IMG/VR virus record: IMGVR_UViG_3300027770_000307 | Span: 1-20,599 of that record | Direction: 5' to 3' (one strand) | Length of the DNA stretch: 20,599 nucleotides | DNA from: a virus | Shown: positions 3,116-17,531 of the stretch, one piece after another | Layout of the letters: each line of letters starts with the position of its first letter | How positions within the stretch are numbered: the stretch's first letter is position 1 | The notes under the pieces: generated by a model | Databases searched by the model: none | Told to the model about the DNA's origin: nothing | Seen by the model: the letters and a program-made list of their open reading frames with translations, nothing else | Position numbers and translations under genes: made by a program

Positions 3116-3639
3116 AGTTCTAAATTTTTATTGTTAACAGAATCTAATCTAACGCTATTAGATGAATTTATTATTTTTAATTTTTCTTTTAGGTCTGTGG
3201 GAAGCATTGGGTTGTCATGCTTTTCTATAATCCTTTCCTCTACCTGAAACTCATCTTCGTTTTCTGGATTAGCATGAGCCGTTGCCCAAATGCAGTCTTC
3301 CCAAATATATAAAACACGCCTTGTGCCTGGTTCTGTAACACCAATATATGGTGCTTCCAAATACTGCTCTACGCCCTCATCTATCCAAACAGAAACAGAC
3401 CCCTTCAATATAAAATATTGGTGCTGTGTTTTGTGTATCTTGCTTACAATCAAAGAACCTGCTGGCATGAATATTTCCCTAACATAAAGCCCATCTGTAA
3501 ACCTGTGATTTAATGGGCAACTAATGATGTCAAAGTTCTCAGCCATTATTGACTCTAGTTCGTCTATCTTCTGCTCCTTAGTCTTCTCTTGTATGTCAGA
3601 AGCCGAAATTGTAACTACTGACTTTTCTTCGTTTTGCAT
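3112..3639 (-). CDS. Cupin-fold phage protein, 175 aa
   Basis: Residues about 45-125 read as a single cupin-type beta barrel. An H-x3-H pair (H69, H73) is followed by QYFILKGSVSVW, which matches cupin motif 1. A second part, PGTRRVLYIWEDCIWATAH (104-122), ends with a histidine where motif 2 would supply the last ligand. The N-terminal 40 residues are charged and helical, and the C-terminal 35 are polar. Similar cupin proteins occur in many tailed phages among tail genes, but their role (structural or enzymatic) is not established. It sits 10 bp after the large tail protein and overlaps the next gene by four bases. The histidines hint at a metal site; I cannot say whether it is functional. Confidence 0.75.
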   Translation of the reverse strand: MQNEEKSVVTISASDIQEKTKEQKIDELESIMAENFDIISCPLNHRFTDGLYVREIFMPAGSLIVSKIHKTQHQYFILKGSVSVWIDEGVEQYLEAPYIGVTEPGTRRVLYIWEDCIWATAHANPENEDEFQVEERIIEKHDNPMLPTDLKEKLKIINSSNSVRLDSVNNKNLEL

Positions 3640-10757: not shown

Positions 10758-11420
10758 TTATTCTACGATTTCTTTGCCTAATATTCTGTCCTGCTGTAAA
10801 ATTATAAATTTCTTTCCGTTTATTTCGTAGTGCTGTGCCTTGTCTGAGTTAAAGTATGCTAGGTCGCCATTTGAGGCTTGTATGTTTGGGAGGTGCTGCC
10901 TGTTGTTCCCAATGTGCATTATATGCGAAGACTTGGCTTTCTTTGTTTTCTTTATTGTCTGAGCCAATATAATCTTGTCCTGCTCAAACTCTTCAAGCAT
11001 TACAAACCCGTTTACCATTATTATTTCCCCGTCACGAATAACTCCAAATAAGTTTCTTATATCACAACTAAAATATTCCTTACCATCGTATTTAATTAAG
11101 TTCCTGTAAACAGGCTCTCCGTTTTCTTGTTTTATAACAAGGTCGTAAATTACTTTAAATGAGAATATAGCCATGTCGCCTATCTGTAGGTCTTGTATTG
11201 AGTAGCCTTCGTATTGCTTGTCGTTTGTGATTTGTCTGGGAATTGACACTATTTCCCCTACAATATTTACCACATCTGCTGGGTCAACTGAAGCCCCGTT
11301 TTGAATTGATGACCTCTTCATTAGGTCTGAAATATGTCTTATGTATCTTGTCTTTGGATGTACTATTACTTTATTTGTTGGGGCTTGAATCATACTTAAA
11401 TTTTTTGTATTTTTTTTCAT
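10758..11420 (-). CDS. Double GroES (Cpn10)-like protein, 220 aa
   Basis: I read two Cpn10-like barrels in a row. The first (about 15-130) has NKVIVHPK, VGEIVSIP, DLQIGDMAIFSF and YFSCDIRNLFGVI, in the order of the GroES strands (core start, GxV strand, VGDxVxF, final DILAVI-type strand). The second (about 136-218) has NGFVMLEE and ends with GDLAYFNSDKAQHYEINGKK then FIILQQDRILGKE, close to the GroES ending in which a GDxVLF strand leads to LILRExDIL. Phage co-chaperonins such as T4 gp31 replace GroES for capsid folding by the host GroEL; a similar role is possible here. The start overlaps the upstream 107-aa gene by 50 bp; a second ATG at 11393 would shorten this. Fold assignment is by eye. 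Confidence 0.6.
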   Translation of the reverse strand: MKKNTKNLSMIQAPTNKVIVHPKTRYIRHISDLMKRSSIQNGASVDPADVVNIVGEIVSIPRQITNDKQYEGYSIQDLQIGDMAIFSFKVIYDLVIKQENGEPVYRNLIKYDGKEYFSCDIRNLFGVIRDGEIIMVNGFVMLEEFEQDKIILAQTIKKTKKAKSSHIMHIGNNRQHLPNIQASNGDLAYFNSDKAQHYEINGKKFIILQQDRILGKEIVE

Positions 11421-14598: not shown

Positions 14599-14629
14599 TT
14601 TGGTGGTATCAAAAATTTTTCTATTTTTG
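14599..14629 (+). promoter_or_regulatory. Bacteroidetes-type promoter (TTTG-N19-TAnnTTTG)
   Basis: TTTG at 14599-14602 and TATTTTTG at 14622-14629 are separated by 19 bp, matching the Bacteroidetes primary-sigma consensus (-33 TTTG, -7 TAnnTTTG) in both boxes and spacing. The expected start is near 14632-14634, which coincides with the first base of the long inverted repeat that follows. It is the only perfect two-box match I found in the window. The -33 box overlaps a 12-bp AAAAATATTTTT palindrome (14590-14601). Confidence 0.7.
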
Positions 14630-14632
14630 TCC

Positions 14633-14774
14633 TGCTTAAACAAAGACATATGATTTCCAAAAAAAAAAATCATTTAAAATAACTGGGTAACTTCTGTTGC
14701 AAAATTATCTTCCGCTTTTCCATAAGCAAGATGTTTTTGTTTAAGCAACAACAGAAGCTACCCTTAACTTTTTT
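14633..14774 (+). ncRNA. Structured leader RNA or small RNA with interleaved stems and terminal U-tract
   Basis: Two long complementary pairs are interleaved in the order A-C-A'-C'. A (14633-14649) pairs with A' (14731-14747) over 17 positions with one G-U. C (14685-14699) pairs with C' (14749-14763) at 14 of 15 positions, with GGGTA/TACCC at its base. A' and C' are one base apart. The spacers hold small hairpins of their own: ATGATTT/AAATCAT (14650-14673) and CTT..GCTT/AAGC.AAG (14709-14730). C' is followed by TTAACTTTTTT (14764-14774), so stem C-C' resembles an intrinsic terminator with a large loop. The promoter's expected start is base one of A. A pseudoknot, an attenuator in which A-A' and C-C' compete, or a free-standing RNA of about 140 nt are all possible; so is a replication-origin DNA element. 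Confidence 0.6.
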
Positions 14775-14777
14775 ATT

Positions 14778-15569
14778 ATGAAAAAAGATACTTTTTATTT
14801 TTCTCATGATTACAATGCTCATGATGATGTCAAAATCCTTTTTTTAAGACAAGAATTAGGGATGGAAGGTTATGGTATTTTTTGGTTTTTAATTGAAAAA
14901 CTTGCAGATTCTGGTGGTATTTTACCATTAAATTTAACACCTGTTTTAGCTATGCAAATGCATACATCAGAAACGAAAGTTTTAGGTGTAATTAATCAGT
15001 ATGGATTGTTTAATATTATTGAAAATGAATTTTTTAGTGAAAGACTTTTAGAGCATTTAAAAATAAGAAAACATTTATCAGATTCTGGTAAAAATGGTGC
15101 AGATAAAAGATGGGGTATTGATAGGGTGGCTAATGGGGGGGCTATTAGCATACCTAATGGGGACGGTAATGCAAAGGAAAGGAAAGGAAAGGAAAAGAAA
15201 GTAAAAGAAATAAAAGAAGAGTATAATACTTTTAAAGATACTGAAGATAACAAACATAATAAAAATTTAGAGAGTAGCTCCACGCCAGAAAGTTTGCTTG
15301 AAAATTCAAATTTATTTAGAAAGCCAAATATTCCAACATTTGAACAAGTGTATGAAGATTGTATTAGAAAGGGCGGCACAAAACAAATGGCTGAAAAATT
15401 TTTTGCAAAACACGAAGCATATGGTTGGATAACATCAAATGGTGCAATTACTAATTTTTCATACCTTTTAAGCAATTACATTGCAAGTTGGAAAGAAAAT
15501 GAAGAAAAAAACAACTTAAAAGCACCAAAAAGCACTTATGTAGTTCAAACACCAAGAGAGGATTGGTAG
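14778..15569 (+). CDS. DUF4373 (Lin1244/Lin1753-type) replication initiation-like protein, 263 aa
   Basis: Residues about 4-90 match the DUF4373 / Lin1244-Lin1753 N-terminal domain, a winged-helix module of DnaD-like replication proteins: FYFSHDYNAHDDVKILFLRQ, ELGMEGYGIFWFLIEKLADS, GGILPL. A charged linker (about 130-165) contains KERKGKEKKVKEIKEE. The C-terminal part (about 185-235) has a small helical domain beginning PTFEQVYEDCIRKGGTKQMA, with YGWITSNGAITNFSYLLSNY, also typical of these proteins. It likely helps open the phage origin or load the helicase encoded 105 bp downstream. Its start is preceded by the structured element at 14633-14774 and overlaps the stop of a 16-codon leader ORF. 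No GGGAA/TTCCC word occurs in it, unlike most neighbours. Confidence 0.8.
   Translation: MKKDTFYFSHDYNAHDDVKILFLRQELGMEGYGIFWFLIEKLADSGGILPLNLTPVLAMQMHTSETKVLGVINQYGLFNIIENEFFSERLLEHLKIRKHLSDSGKNGADKRWGIDRVANGGAISIPNGDGNAKERKGKEKKVKEIKEEYNTFKDTEDNKHNKNLESSSTPESLLENSNLFRKPNIPTFEQVYEDCIRKGGTKQMAEKFFAKHEAYGWITSNGAITNFSYLLSNYIASWKENEEKNNLKAPKSTYVVQTPREDW
15172..15215 (+). repeat. Polypurine tract with four AAAGG-type pentamers
   Basis: Within the linker of the DUF4373 gene the plus strand is almost pure purine for about 44 bases, beginning with a pentamer (AAAGG) repeated four times. Pentamer gain or loss would shift the reading frame, so slippage here could switch off the C-terminal domain. Similar K/E-rich linkers are common in this family, so codon bias alone may explain it. 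Confidence 0.6.
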
Positions 15570-15674
15570 TTAAATTTATTTTAACATAGCAAATTTAAAA
15601 GATAATTAGTTTTTGGATAGTATGTACCACTCAGAAAAAATAACGCACTAAATCGCCTTAAAATAACGAATACG
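15570..15674 (+). other. Intergenic gap with weak inverted and direct repeats
   Basis: This 105-bp AT-rich gap before the primase-helicase gene contains TTAAATTT / AAATTTAA arms (about 15569-15576 / 15590-15597), too AT-rich to be a strong terminator and without a T-run. It also has a repeated AAAATAACG (two copies, about 15638-15646 and 15659-15667). I see no exact TAnnTTTG box on the plus strand; TAGTTTTTG near 15608 has one base too many. Confidence 0.35.
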
Positions 15675-17531
15675 ATGATTACGATTTTTCAGAATATATT
15701 TTCAAAAGACCCACATTACATTTCTGTTGGGGAAGCGTTGACTAGAATTTCCCAAGGCAAAAGCAAACAAAGGGTAGAAGACATTAGGAGTCAACTAGAC
15801 AAGGAGAAGTCAAATAAATTGAAAGCGAACTTGCCTTCAGTTTGTTTTTCGGGTAAGTTTGGGAAGAACCGAAAGGATGACGAACTTATAGAGCATAGTG
15901 GATTTTTAGTACTTGACTTTGATGATGTTTATGAACTTAGGGAAAAGCAGACAGAGATAATTAGCCATGATTTTGTATATGCTTGTTGGGTTAGTCCGTC
16001 TGGGAAGGGTTTAAAGGCACTCATAAAAATAGCAGATGGGACTAAGCATAGGGAGCATTTTTCTTCTTTGCAGGAGGTTTTCCCCGACATAGACAAATCA
16101 GGAGCTAACCCTTCAAGAGTGTGCTATGAGTCTTATGACCCTGAGATATACATAAACGAAACGGCTAAAGTTTTCAAAAAGACTAAAAAGACAGAAAAGA
16201 TAGTTGAGCGTAAGGTTCAAGATACAGACGATTACCAAATATTTAAAAACTTATTAATTTGGATGTCAAATAAGGGTAACGCATTTGTGTCTGGGGAAAG
16301 GAACAATTTTATATTTATGTTAGCTTCTTCTTGTTGCAGGTTTGGTATAGATGAGCTTACTGCTGAAAATTTAATTTCTTCTGAGTTTTTAACTAATTCT
16401 GAATTTAGTAGTACGGAGTGTGTGAGAGCAATAAAGTCTGCTTACAGAGCAAATTCATCAAATTTTGGTTCTGCTAAGTTTGAAAAAGATGTATTAGTAG
16501 ACAAGGTTACTAGAAAAGAGGTTGAGATTAACCAAGATATCTTTGATGAAAGCATAAGACCTCAAGATGTTATTTATGGTATTGATGTGAAAGAAAGGGC
16601 AATGGACTTATATAATCTTGGGTTTGCTAAGGTTAATGGAATTAATGTTCCCGATATTGACGATAAGTTTAAGCCAAAGAAGGGTGAGGTTACTTTATTG
16701 ACGGGAATTGGTAACTATGGTAAGTCTTCCTTCAAGAGATGGTATCAAGTGTTTAGAACTGTTTTGTACGGGGAAAAGTTTGCTACATTTTCGCCAGAGG
16801 ATAACCCACCAGAAGAATACTACCATGACCTTGCTGAGATTTTATTAGGATGCGATTGTACACCAAGAAATCCAAGAAGACCTAATATAGATGTTTATCA
16901 AAGAGCATATGATTTTGTAACTGAGCACTTCTTTTACATTTATCCTAAAAATTCAGAACCTACGCCTCAGTATATTAAGCAAGTTTTTTTAGAATTGATT
17001 ATAAAGGAAAAGGTTGACGGATGTGACATTGACCCATTTAACCAAATGACAAATAACTACCAAGGGTTTGCAGGTAGAGATAAGTATCTTGAATTTGTGT
17101 TAACGGATTTCTCAAGATTTGCAGTTTTGAACGATGTGTTTTTTTGGATAGTAGCACATCCAACAAAACTTCCCAAACAACAAGACGGAAACTACCCATG
17201 CCCAGAAGTATTTGATGTTGCAGATGGTGCTATGTGGAACAATAAGATGGACAACATACTTGTTTATCACAGACCATTAGCACAAACAGACCCACAGAAT
17301 CCCATGTGCGAATTTCACTCAAAGAAAATTAGAAGGCAGAAGACAGTAGGTAAAAAGGGTGCATCTTCTTTTGAAATGAATTTCCCAACAAGAAGGTACA
17401 TTTTTTTAGGTGGCGACCCTTTGCAAAAAGCAGTCAATGAAAAGCAATTAGATTTTAATTACAAACAATCTAAGATAGAAATTCCCGAACAAAAACAATG
17501 GGTAGCTATTGATGATGAAATGCCATTTTAA
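15675..17531 (+). CDS. Primase-helicase: BT4734/VirE_N domain fused to RecA-like (Twinkle-type) helicase, 618 aa
   Basis: Residues 1-165 match the BT4734/VirE N-terminal domain seen in Bacteroidetes mobile elements: GFLVLDFDDV (76-85) with its acidic cluster, WVSPSGKGLKALIKI (105-119) and SRVCYESYDPEIYIN. Residues about 185-262 resemble a primase C-terminal helical module (GNAFVSGERNNFIFMLASSC). From about 320 on is a RecA-like helicase core: Walker A GIGNYGKS (344-351), Walker B-like GCDIDPFNQM (449-458), and FWIVAHPTK (490-498), the last two strongly recalling T7 gp4/Twinkle-type helicases. A single protein could therefore prime and unwind at the phage fork. It is followed after 2 bp by the NinG-like gene. 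The primase activity is inferred from architecture. Confidence 0.8.
   Translation: MITIFQNIFSKDPHYISVGEALTRISQGKSKQRVEDIRSQLDKEKSNKLKANLPSVCFSGKFGKNRKDDELIEHSGFLVLDFDDVYELREKQTEIISHDFVYACWVSPSGKGLKALIKIADGTKHREHFSSLQEVFPDIDKSGANPSRVCYESYDPEIYINETAKVFKKTKKTEKIVERKVQDTDDYQIFKNLLIWMSNKGNAFVSGERNNFIFMLASSCCRFGIDELTAENLISSEFLTNSEFSSTECVRAIKSAYRANSSNFGSAKFEKDVLVDKVTRKEVEINQDIFDESIRPQDVIYGIDVKERAMDLYNLGFAKVNGINVPDIDDKFKPKKGEVTLLTGIGNYGKSSFKRWYQVFRTVLYGEKFATFSPEDNPPEEYYHDLAEILLGCDCTPRNPRRPNIDVYQRAYDFVTEHFFYIYPKNSEPTPQYIKQVFLELIIKEKVDGCDIDPFNQMTNNYQGFAGRDKYLEFVLTDFSRFAVLNDVFFWIVAHPTKLPKQQDGNYPCPEVFDVADGAMWNNKMDNILVYHRPLAQTDPQNPMCEFHSKKIRRQKTVGKKGASSFEMNFPTRRYIFLGGDPLQKAVNEKQLDFNYKQSKIEIPEQKQWVAIDDEMPF

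Follow-up and report, generated by a model that had tools for sequence, protein, structure and literature searches.

Comparison with known leader RNAs

The RNA I and RNA II of ColE1 recognize each other through fully paired kissing loops of approximately 7 nt, which change between variants yet stay complementary, and in ColE1-type complexes hairpins with 7-nt loops can persist while kissing. The two loops are located on RNAs of opposite strands, which act on a primer. Attenuators and riboswitches with intrinsic terminators consist of a 5′ leader with the terminator directly before the gene. Among phages, the P4 CI RNA and the c4 RNA of P1/P7 (RF01695) are leaders upstream of, and on the same strand as, replication or antirepressor genes, with complementary segments within one transcript; processing of the leader gives an RNA that acts in trans on complementary parts of leaders. 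In P4, transcription is terminated prematurely before the replication genes (PMC4825925). In Gifsy-1, a single promoter gives both a terminated short RNA (IsrK) and a read-through mRNA, and IsrK pairs with a downstream ORF and activates its translation in trans (PMC4825925).

The RNA element described here is encoded by a 20.6-kb virus record (IMG/VR IMGVR_UViG_3300027770_000307; “the window” hereafter denotes this whole stretch of 20,599 nt). As with the P4 CI and c4 RNAs, this phage leader precedes replication genes on their own strand and has complementary segments within one transcript, and, as at the IsrK locus, a single promoter may give rise to a short terminated RNA as well as a read-through mRNA. 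Unlike the P4 CI and c4 RNAs, however, it carries its complement within the loop of the terminator-like hairpin, has its own predicted promoter start with no sign of processing, lacks a match in Rfam, and belongs to phages that appear virulent. Whereas IsrK pairs with a downstream ORF, the element pairs two loops of a short RNA, and the loops, which resemble those of ColE1 RNA I/II in geometry, are both on one RNA. Its terminator-like hairpin stands directly before a gene as in attenuators and riboswitches, but without a competing antiterminator. There is also no evident sign of a conserved ligand pocket, given that both the first gene and the loop sequences lack conservation. The element is best regarded as a structured phage leader with a probable terminator and an architecture of its own, for which the P4 CI RNA and IsrK are the closest analogs in logic and ColE1 RNA I/II in loop geometry.

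The whole library of Rfam 15 covariance models, the c4 model RF01695 included, gave no match at the element in the window and 23 other loci even at permissive E-values, consistent with the preliminary description, which could name no RNA family with this layout. Literature searches of open-licence papers yielded no description of this element, and we know of no RNA whose 5′-hairpin loop kisses its own terminator loop. The element represents an RNA architecture absent from Rfam at the replication control point of environmental Bacteroidota phages. It also illustrates how RNAs whose loops remain complementary while their sequences diverge escape ordinary homology searches.

Organization of the element in the window

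The structural genes of the window are encoded on the minus strand and the replication operon on the plus strand, in the order of a Lin1244_N rep-like gene, a primase/helicase, NinG, and a C5 methylase. The element is located directly 5′ of the rep-like gene, and its parts and the first operon genes are as follows.

14599..14629, +, Bacteroidota-type promoter, with –33 TTTG at 14599–14602 and –7 TATTTTTG at 14622–14629
14633..14649, +, A (TGCTTAAACAAAGACAT), 5′ strand whose partner lies in the second hairpin loop; corresponds to short-form k
14650..14673, +, B, small hairpin ATGATTT/AAATCAT, also present in the sister phage L351
14685..14699, +, C (GGGTAACTTCTGTTG), 5′ arm of the terminator-like hairpin
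14714..14727, +, D, small hairpin GCTT/AAGC in the C/C′ loop, with the L351 counterpart ATTGC/GCAAT
14731..14747, +, A′, pairs with A from inside the C/C′ loop; corresponds to k′
14749..14763, +, C′, 3′ arm of the terminator-like hairpin
14769..14774, +, U-tract (T6), 5 nt past the stem, with 3 nt between it and the ATG at 14778
14778..15569, +, first gene downstream of the element, replication-initiation-like (Pfam Lin1244_N, PHROG 2562)
15675..17531, +, following operon gene, encoding a primase/helicase (BT4734-like_N)

Segments A and A′ form 17 pairs (16 Watson–Crick and one G-U; duplex energy –19.9 kcal/mol), C and C′ form 14 of 15 pairs (–19.6 kcal/mol), and a gap of 1 nt (14748) separates A′ from C′; these pairs, their interleaved order, the gap, and the T6 tract are all present where the preliminary description had placed them. 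In a scan of the collected loci for this layout, the score of the window, with promoter and T-run included, was 28.8, and none of 12,175 shuffled positions scored as high (best, 21.9). The folding z-score of the element was –4.2. A translated leader peptide (ATG at 14650, 10 codons), considered by eye and compared with L351 only, was dropped, and the required core of self-cleaving ribozymes (hammerhead and pistol) was not seen.

The same description had proposed a promoter-driven RNA that starts at approximately 14633. In Bacteroidota, the motif TAnnTTTG is located at –12 to –5 relative to the start site (PMC9723704), and the predicted +1 is therefore 14634, the second base of A. As the promoter pattern alone is at chance level in this one window (two found vs. 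2.0 expected) and not significant by itself, support for the promoter comes from the relatives, in which a –7-like motif lies no more than 22 nt upstream of the 5′ hairpin in 65 of 74 elements (12% in shuffles) and the predicted 5′ end is within approximately 3 nt of the first pair. A structured RNA driven by this promoter from approximately 14633 is supported.

Short-form relatives have, as terminator-based attenuators do, a GC-rich hairpin and then a U-tract ahead of the first gene, whereas a simple terminator scan was negative on the window because C/C′ closes a 49-nt loop and the U-tract begins 5 nt after the stem. The terminator of the window is not canonical and looks weak.

A sister phage and further long forms

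A search with the primase/helicase of the window identified a sister phage, L351, on a 45.6-kb contig. The two sequences are 93% identical up to 14640 and 96% identical from 15586 onward, and between these points the element and rep gene of the window are swapped for other sequence, comprising the L351 element, an HNH gene, and a different rep-like gene. The L351 element retains the order A-B-C-D-A′-C′, but every stem has new letters. Its A/A′ is TTGCTCAAA/TTTGAGCAA, extended by CACATTATA/TGTAATGTG, its C/C′ is GGTCTATACCTGCGGTT/AACCGCAGGAATAGACC, followed by TATATTTTTTT and then ATG, and the small hairpins B (ATGTTT/AAACAT) and D (ATTGC/GCAAT) were read from the sequence. Further long-form examples, L394 and L437, precede other rep-like genes. 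Compensatory change in A/A′ and C/C′ among relatives, which had been set beforehand as the deciding test, was found in L351, L394, and L437 as well as in the short forms described below. The element and its first gene behave as an exchangeable module. The exchanged block corresponds to 14641–15585 in the window and 991–2409 in L351, covering the element plus the first genes through the rep gene, and one of its breakpoints is at most 10 nt from the predicted start site.

Helices A/A′ and C/C′ have no bases in common in the window, L394, and L437 and share 2 nt in L351. As the stems share no more than 2 nt, a pseudoknot or kissing complex with both stems is supported, and a switch between antiterminator and terminator is not.

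Short forms and covariation

Most elements 5′ of related rep genes have a short form of approximately 90–100 nt, with a promoter, a 5′ hairpin (H1), a linker, a terminator hairpin (H2), and the ATG in this order. The H1 loop (k, 7–9 nt) is perfectly complementary to the H2 loop (k′). In a scoring scan, 63 of 231 distinct rep upstream regions had scores ≥ 46, compared with 0 of 1,155 shuffles. A handful of the 63 (e.g., L148, L214, and L288) probably passed by chance, as they lack a promoter or T-run at the proper position, and approximately two thirds of the rep upstream regions were below the threshold, often with rep inside an operon. A curated set of 74 elements contains 29 distinct k, the A segment of the window counted among them, including GTCGCAT, GTCGTAT, GTTGCAG, GTACGAG, GTAGGAT, GTACCAG, AGGTGAGAG, and AGGTAGGAG. 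The GTCGCAT/ATGCGAC pair is inverted in L062, where each loop sequence stands in the place of the other.

Because the scoring scan itself demands complementarity, counting on an alignment is the more independent test. For this purpose, 35 sequences were aligned with MAFFT without fitting to the structure; 93.2% of the cells were paired and double changes occurred at 23 of 26 pairs, a count of sequences rather than of independent events. The covariation score was 0.667, compared with 0.181 in shuffled alignments and ≤ 0.205 when partners were slid by 1–3 columns, and the loop–loop helix alone was 93.9% paired. Double changes were present in each of helices 1, 2, 3, and 5, i.e., in the interleaved helices of an H-type pseudoknot or kissing-loop RNA, and a second family (A6) likewise supports H1 and H2. 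The 5′ hairpin, the loop–loop helix, and the terminator stem occupy separate bases in the short form, and hence all three helices can coexist. On these comparative grounds, the structure of the leader RNA is well supported.

The pattern RUNNNA was present in 27 of the 29 distinct k loops but in only 17% of shuffled loops. The center of the loop covaries freely, but the U of position 2 and the A of position 6 are retained, which simple pairing does not explain. The RUNNNA frame resembles anticodon loops, a likeness that serves as a lead only. In addition, H2 of family II (L085, L045, L075, L062, and relatives) has a purine-rich internal loop (A5 columns 48–51 and 73–76), in which UGAA faces an RGAAU-like sequence between two covarying stems, and this loop could be a protein-binding or stabilizing motif. 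A Box C/D-like kink-turn at this internal loop (L058, ATGATGA...CTGA) was dropped because other members lose the motif.

Distribution and genomic context

A scan for the element at T-runs found 144 matches in the loci, compared with zero among 3,199 shuffled positions (shuffles derived from 200 of the loci). In addition to rep and HNH genes, the element precedes DUF1376-like genes in L126 and L118, a methyltransferase in L164, and small ORFs in L183 and L116, and a search with model R1 found it 5′ of a methyltransferase in L042. As the first gene varies in this way, what the element marks is not a particular gene family but the start of the replication operon. Model R1, which represents one family, found the element in only one of 395 Bacteroidota genomes, and named phages searched for DNA resembling the leader of the window gave only a chance match of 41 bp. 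No tyrosine integrase was detected in 23 virus records, most of them element-bearing, while all control genomes were positive.

Proteins with a DnaA C-terminal (DNA-binding) domain (PF08299) are encoded just upstream of the element in L003 (2531–2890) and L004 (2478–2897). A different, GC-richer leader is located before a more distant rep gene in L112 (1890–2000, contig 3300045118_000238); it has the interleaved complementary segments AGTCAACA/TGTTGACT and ACAACACGG/CCGTTGTTGT, and its scan result was not above chance.

Occurrence in cultured phages

The element is also present in cultured phages, and thus its role is directly testable with natural matched loop variants. The k/k′ pairs are GTGGAGG/CCTCCAC in Flavobacterium phage vB_FspP_elemoE, GTGGTGG/CCACCAC in Olleya phage Harreka_1, and GTACGAC/GTCGTAC in Cellulophaga phage phi19:1, and by eye elemoA, elemoA_2-5C, and phi18:3 fit as well. 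Among the muminphages, k/k′ is GTGAGAAG/CTTCTCAC in Flavobacterium phage vB_FspS_morran9-1, GTGAGACG/CGTCTCAC in hattifnatt9-1 and filifjonk9-1, and GTGGAACG/CGTTCCAC in snusmum6-1 and mumin6-1. The muminphage elements score 41.5–44.5, individually under the strict threshold, and are supported by matched changes between relatives; as these relatives align at 82–87% around the element, the changes are natural compensatory changes at close range. In the muminphages, which are described as virulent (PMC7077304), the next gene begins tens of nucleotides past the U-tract, and the tight spacing of terminator and ATG is therefore not universal.

In morran9-1 (L441), a 47-codon hypothetical protein annotated in GenBank (morran91_gp042) overlies the RNA element at 3150–3293 and is probably no gene. 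An Rfam DUF805b motif (RF02914, 52 bits) is located between two genes of this phage at 1831–1865.

Possible function of the leader

In the elements, T makes up 63% of the 15 nt preceding the ATG, and TTTTT occurs in 90%, whereas the same 15 nt in 1,013 control genes are 47% A, with TTTTT in 11%, and start regions in Bacteroidota (Flavobacterium) are A-rich (PMC6847099). In many elements the U-tract is only a few nucleotides before the ATG, which leaves no room for another promoter, and the gene would accordingly be reached by read-through. From the T-rich run before the ATG, the tight spacing between U-tract and ATG, and the predicted 5′ end close to the first pair, we infer an attenuating leader. 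With only slightly better than even probability, the element is a leader RNA heading the phage replication operon, the 3′ arm of which is an intrinsic terminator, such that the replication genes require read-through.

The mechanism and its sign, as we infer them, would be as follows. Transcription is predicted to start at, or within approximately 3 nt of, the first paired base, and comparison supports pairing of a 5′ segment (the H1 loop k or, in the window, the unpaired-hairpin-free strand A) with a segment in the loop of H2 (C/C′ in the window). Downstream of H2 come a U-tract and, usually at once, the first operon gene. H2 would act as an intrinsic terminator at which many transcripts end, giving compact RNAs of approximately 95–140 nt with their 5′ and 3′ domains locked together; a phage small RNA of approximately 140 nt is a possible terminated product. 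The replication genes would be expressed from polymerases that read through H2, and the 5′ domain, clamped on the terminator loop, may set the efficiency of termination, most likely by stabilizing the hairpin, and thereby keep the supply of replication protein low or delayed. A clamp that promotes termination is favored because two hairpins with 7-nt loops can both remain folded during the kissing interaction. In the window, A/A′ is the minimum-energy fold once A′ is made and before C′ is made, and thus the clamp can form first. Such a clamp needs complementarity rather than particular letters, which would explain the free sequence change between phages. On a broader reading that we consider doubtful, the element may represent a widespread, undescribed class of phage RNA whose 5′ end recognizes its own terminator loop by means of a core that evolves freely while its frame is fixed (RUNNNA in k and, accordingly, UNNNAY in k′). 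Each phage lineage would then have a matched pair of its own, which would time replication and prevent cross-reaction with related phages sharing the cell.

Alternatively, the terminated short RNA may accumulate during infection and act in trans by pairing with nascent or read-through leaders of the same phage, as the P4 CI, P1/P7 c4, or IsrK RNAs do, either as a dosage control of replication genes or to exclude related superinfecting phages, with the variable loops as an identity code; this appears unlikely, though its probability is appreciable. The loops do differ among close relatives with complementarity kept, the P4 CI RNA blocks P4’s own replication genes by premature termination, and the read-through transcript of the IsrK locus is itself a target of the short IsrK RNA (PMC4825925). 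However, the partner of k lies in the same molecule, which favors pairing in cis, and own k and k′ sequences elsewhere in the locus showed no enrichment (three and one found vs. 4.7 and 2.0 expected). Family II loops vary about as much as the stems, and lysogenic immunity is unlikely given that 23 virus records have no tyrosine integrase and the muminphages are virulent (PMC7077304). An improbable reading is that a stable 5′ structure serves to protect the mRNA or to adjust how the first gene is translated, the U-run being only an unstructured start region. Although the 5′ end is predicted to be paired from its first bases and the structure adjoins the start codon, gene starts in these phages and in Flavobacterium are A-rich (PMC6847099), and the element leaves a T-run after a stem, as intrinsic terminators do.

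The preliminary description had proposed a mutually exclusive switch in which A/A′ is an antiterminator competing with a C/C′ terminator. Pseudoknot-free folding places the two alternatives close in energy (–24.9 vs. –22.1 kcal/mol), and until C′ is made the fold of lowest energy is A/A′, but an antiterminator helix that uses terminator bases was absent in three of the four long elements, with 2 nt shared in the fourth, and covariation in the short form keeps the loop–loop helix and both stems simultaneously, such that this competition is quite improbable. The position at the head of the replication operon, together with the DnaA C-terminal domain genes just upstream in L003 and L004, would also suit an origin at which the transcript or single-stranded DNA folds and primes or marks the start of replication. 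This is very improbable, as the structure finishes in a U-tract at a start codon and the cumulative GC skew of the window turns near 12–13 kb rather than at 14.6 kb.

Other genomic features

Within the structural gene block of the window, the C-terminal part of the protein encoded at 10758–11420 (–) matches the co-chaperonin Cpn10/GroES (PF00166, E ~1e-6). The contigs of L007 and L002 (both 3300027770_000018) and of L005 (3300009161_000529) stop within the rep gene, and the presence of the rep gene start at both ends of 3300027770_000018 suggests a circular or terminally redundant genome.
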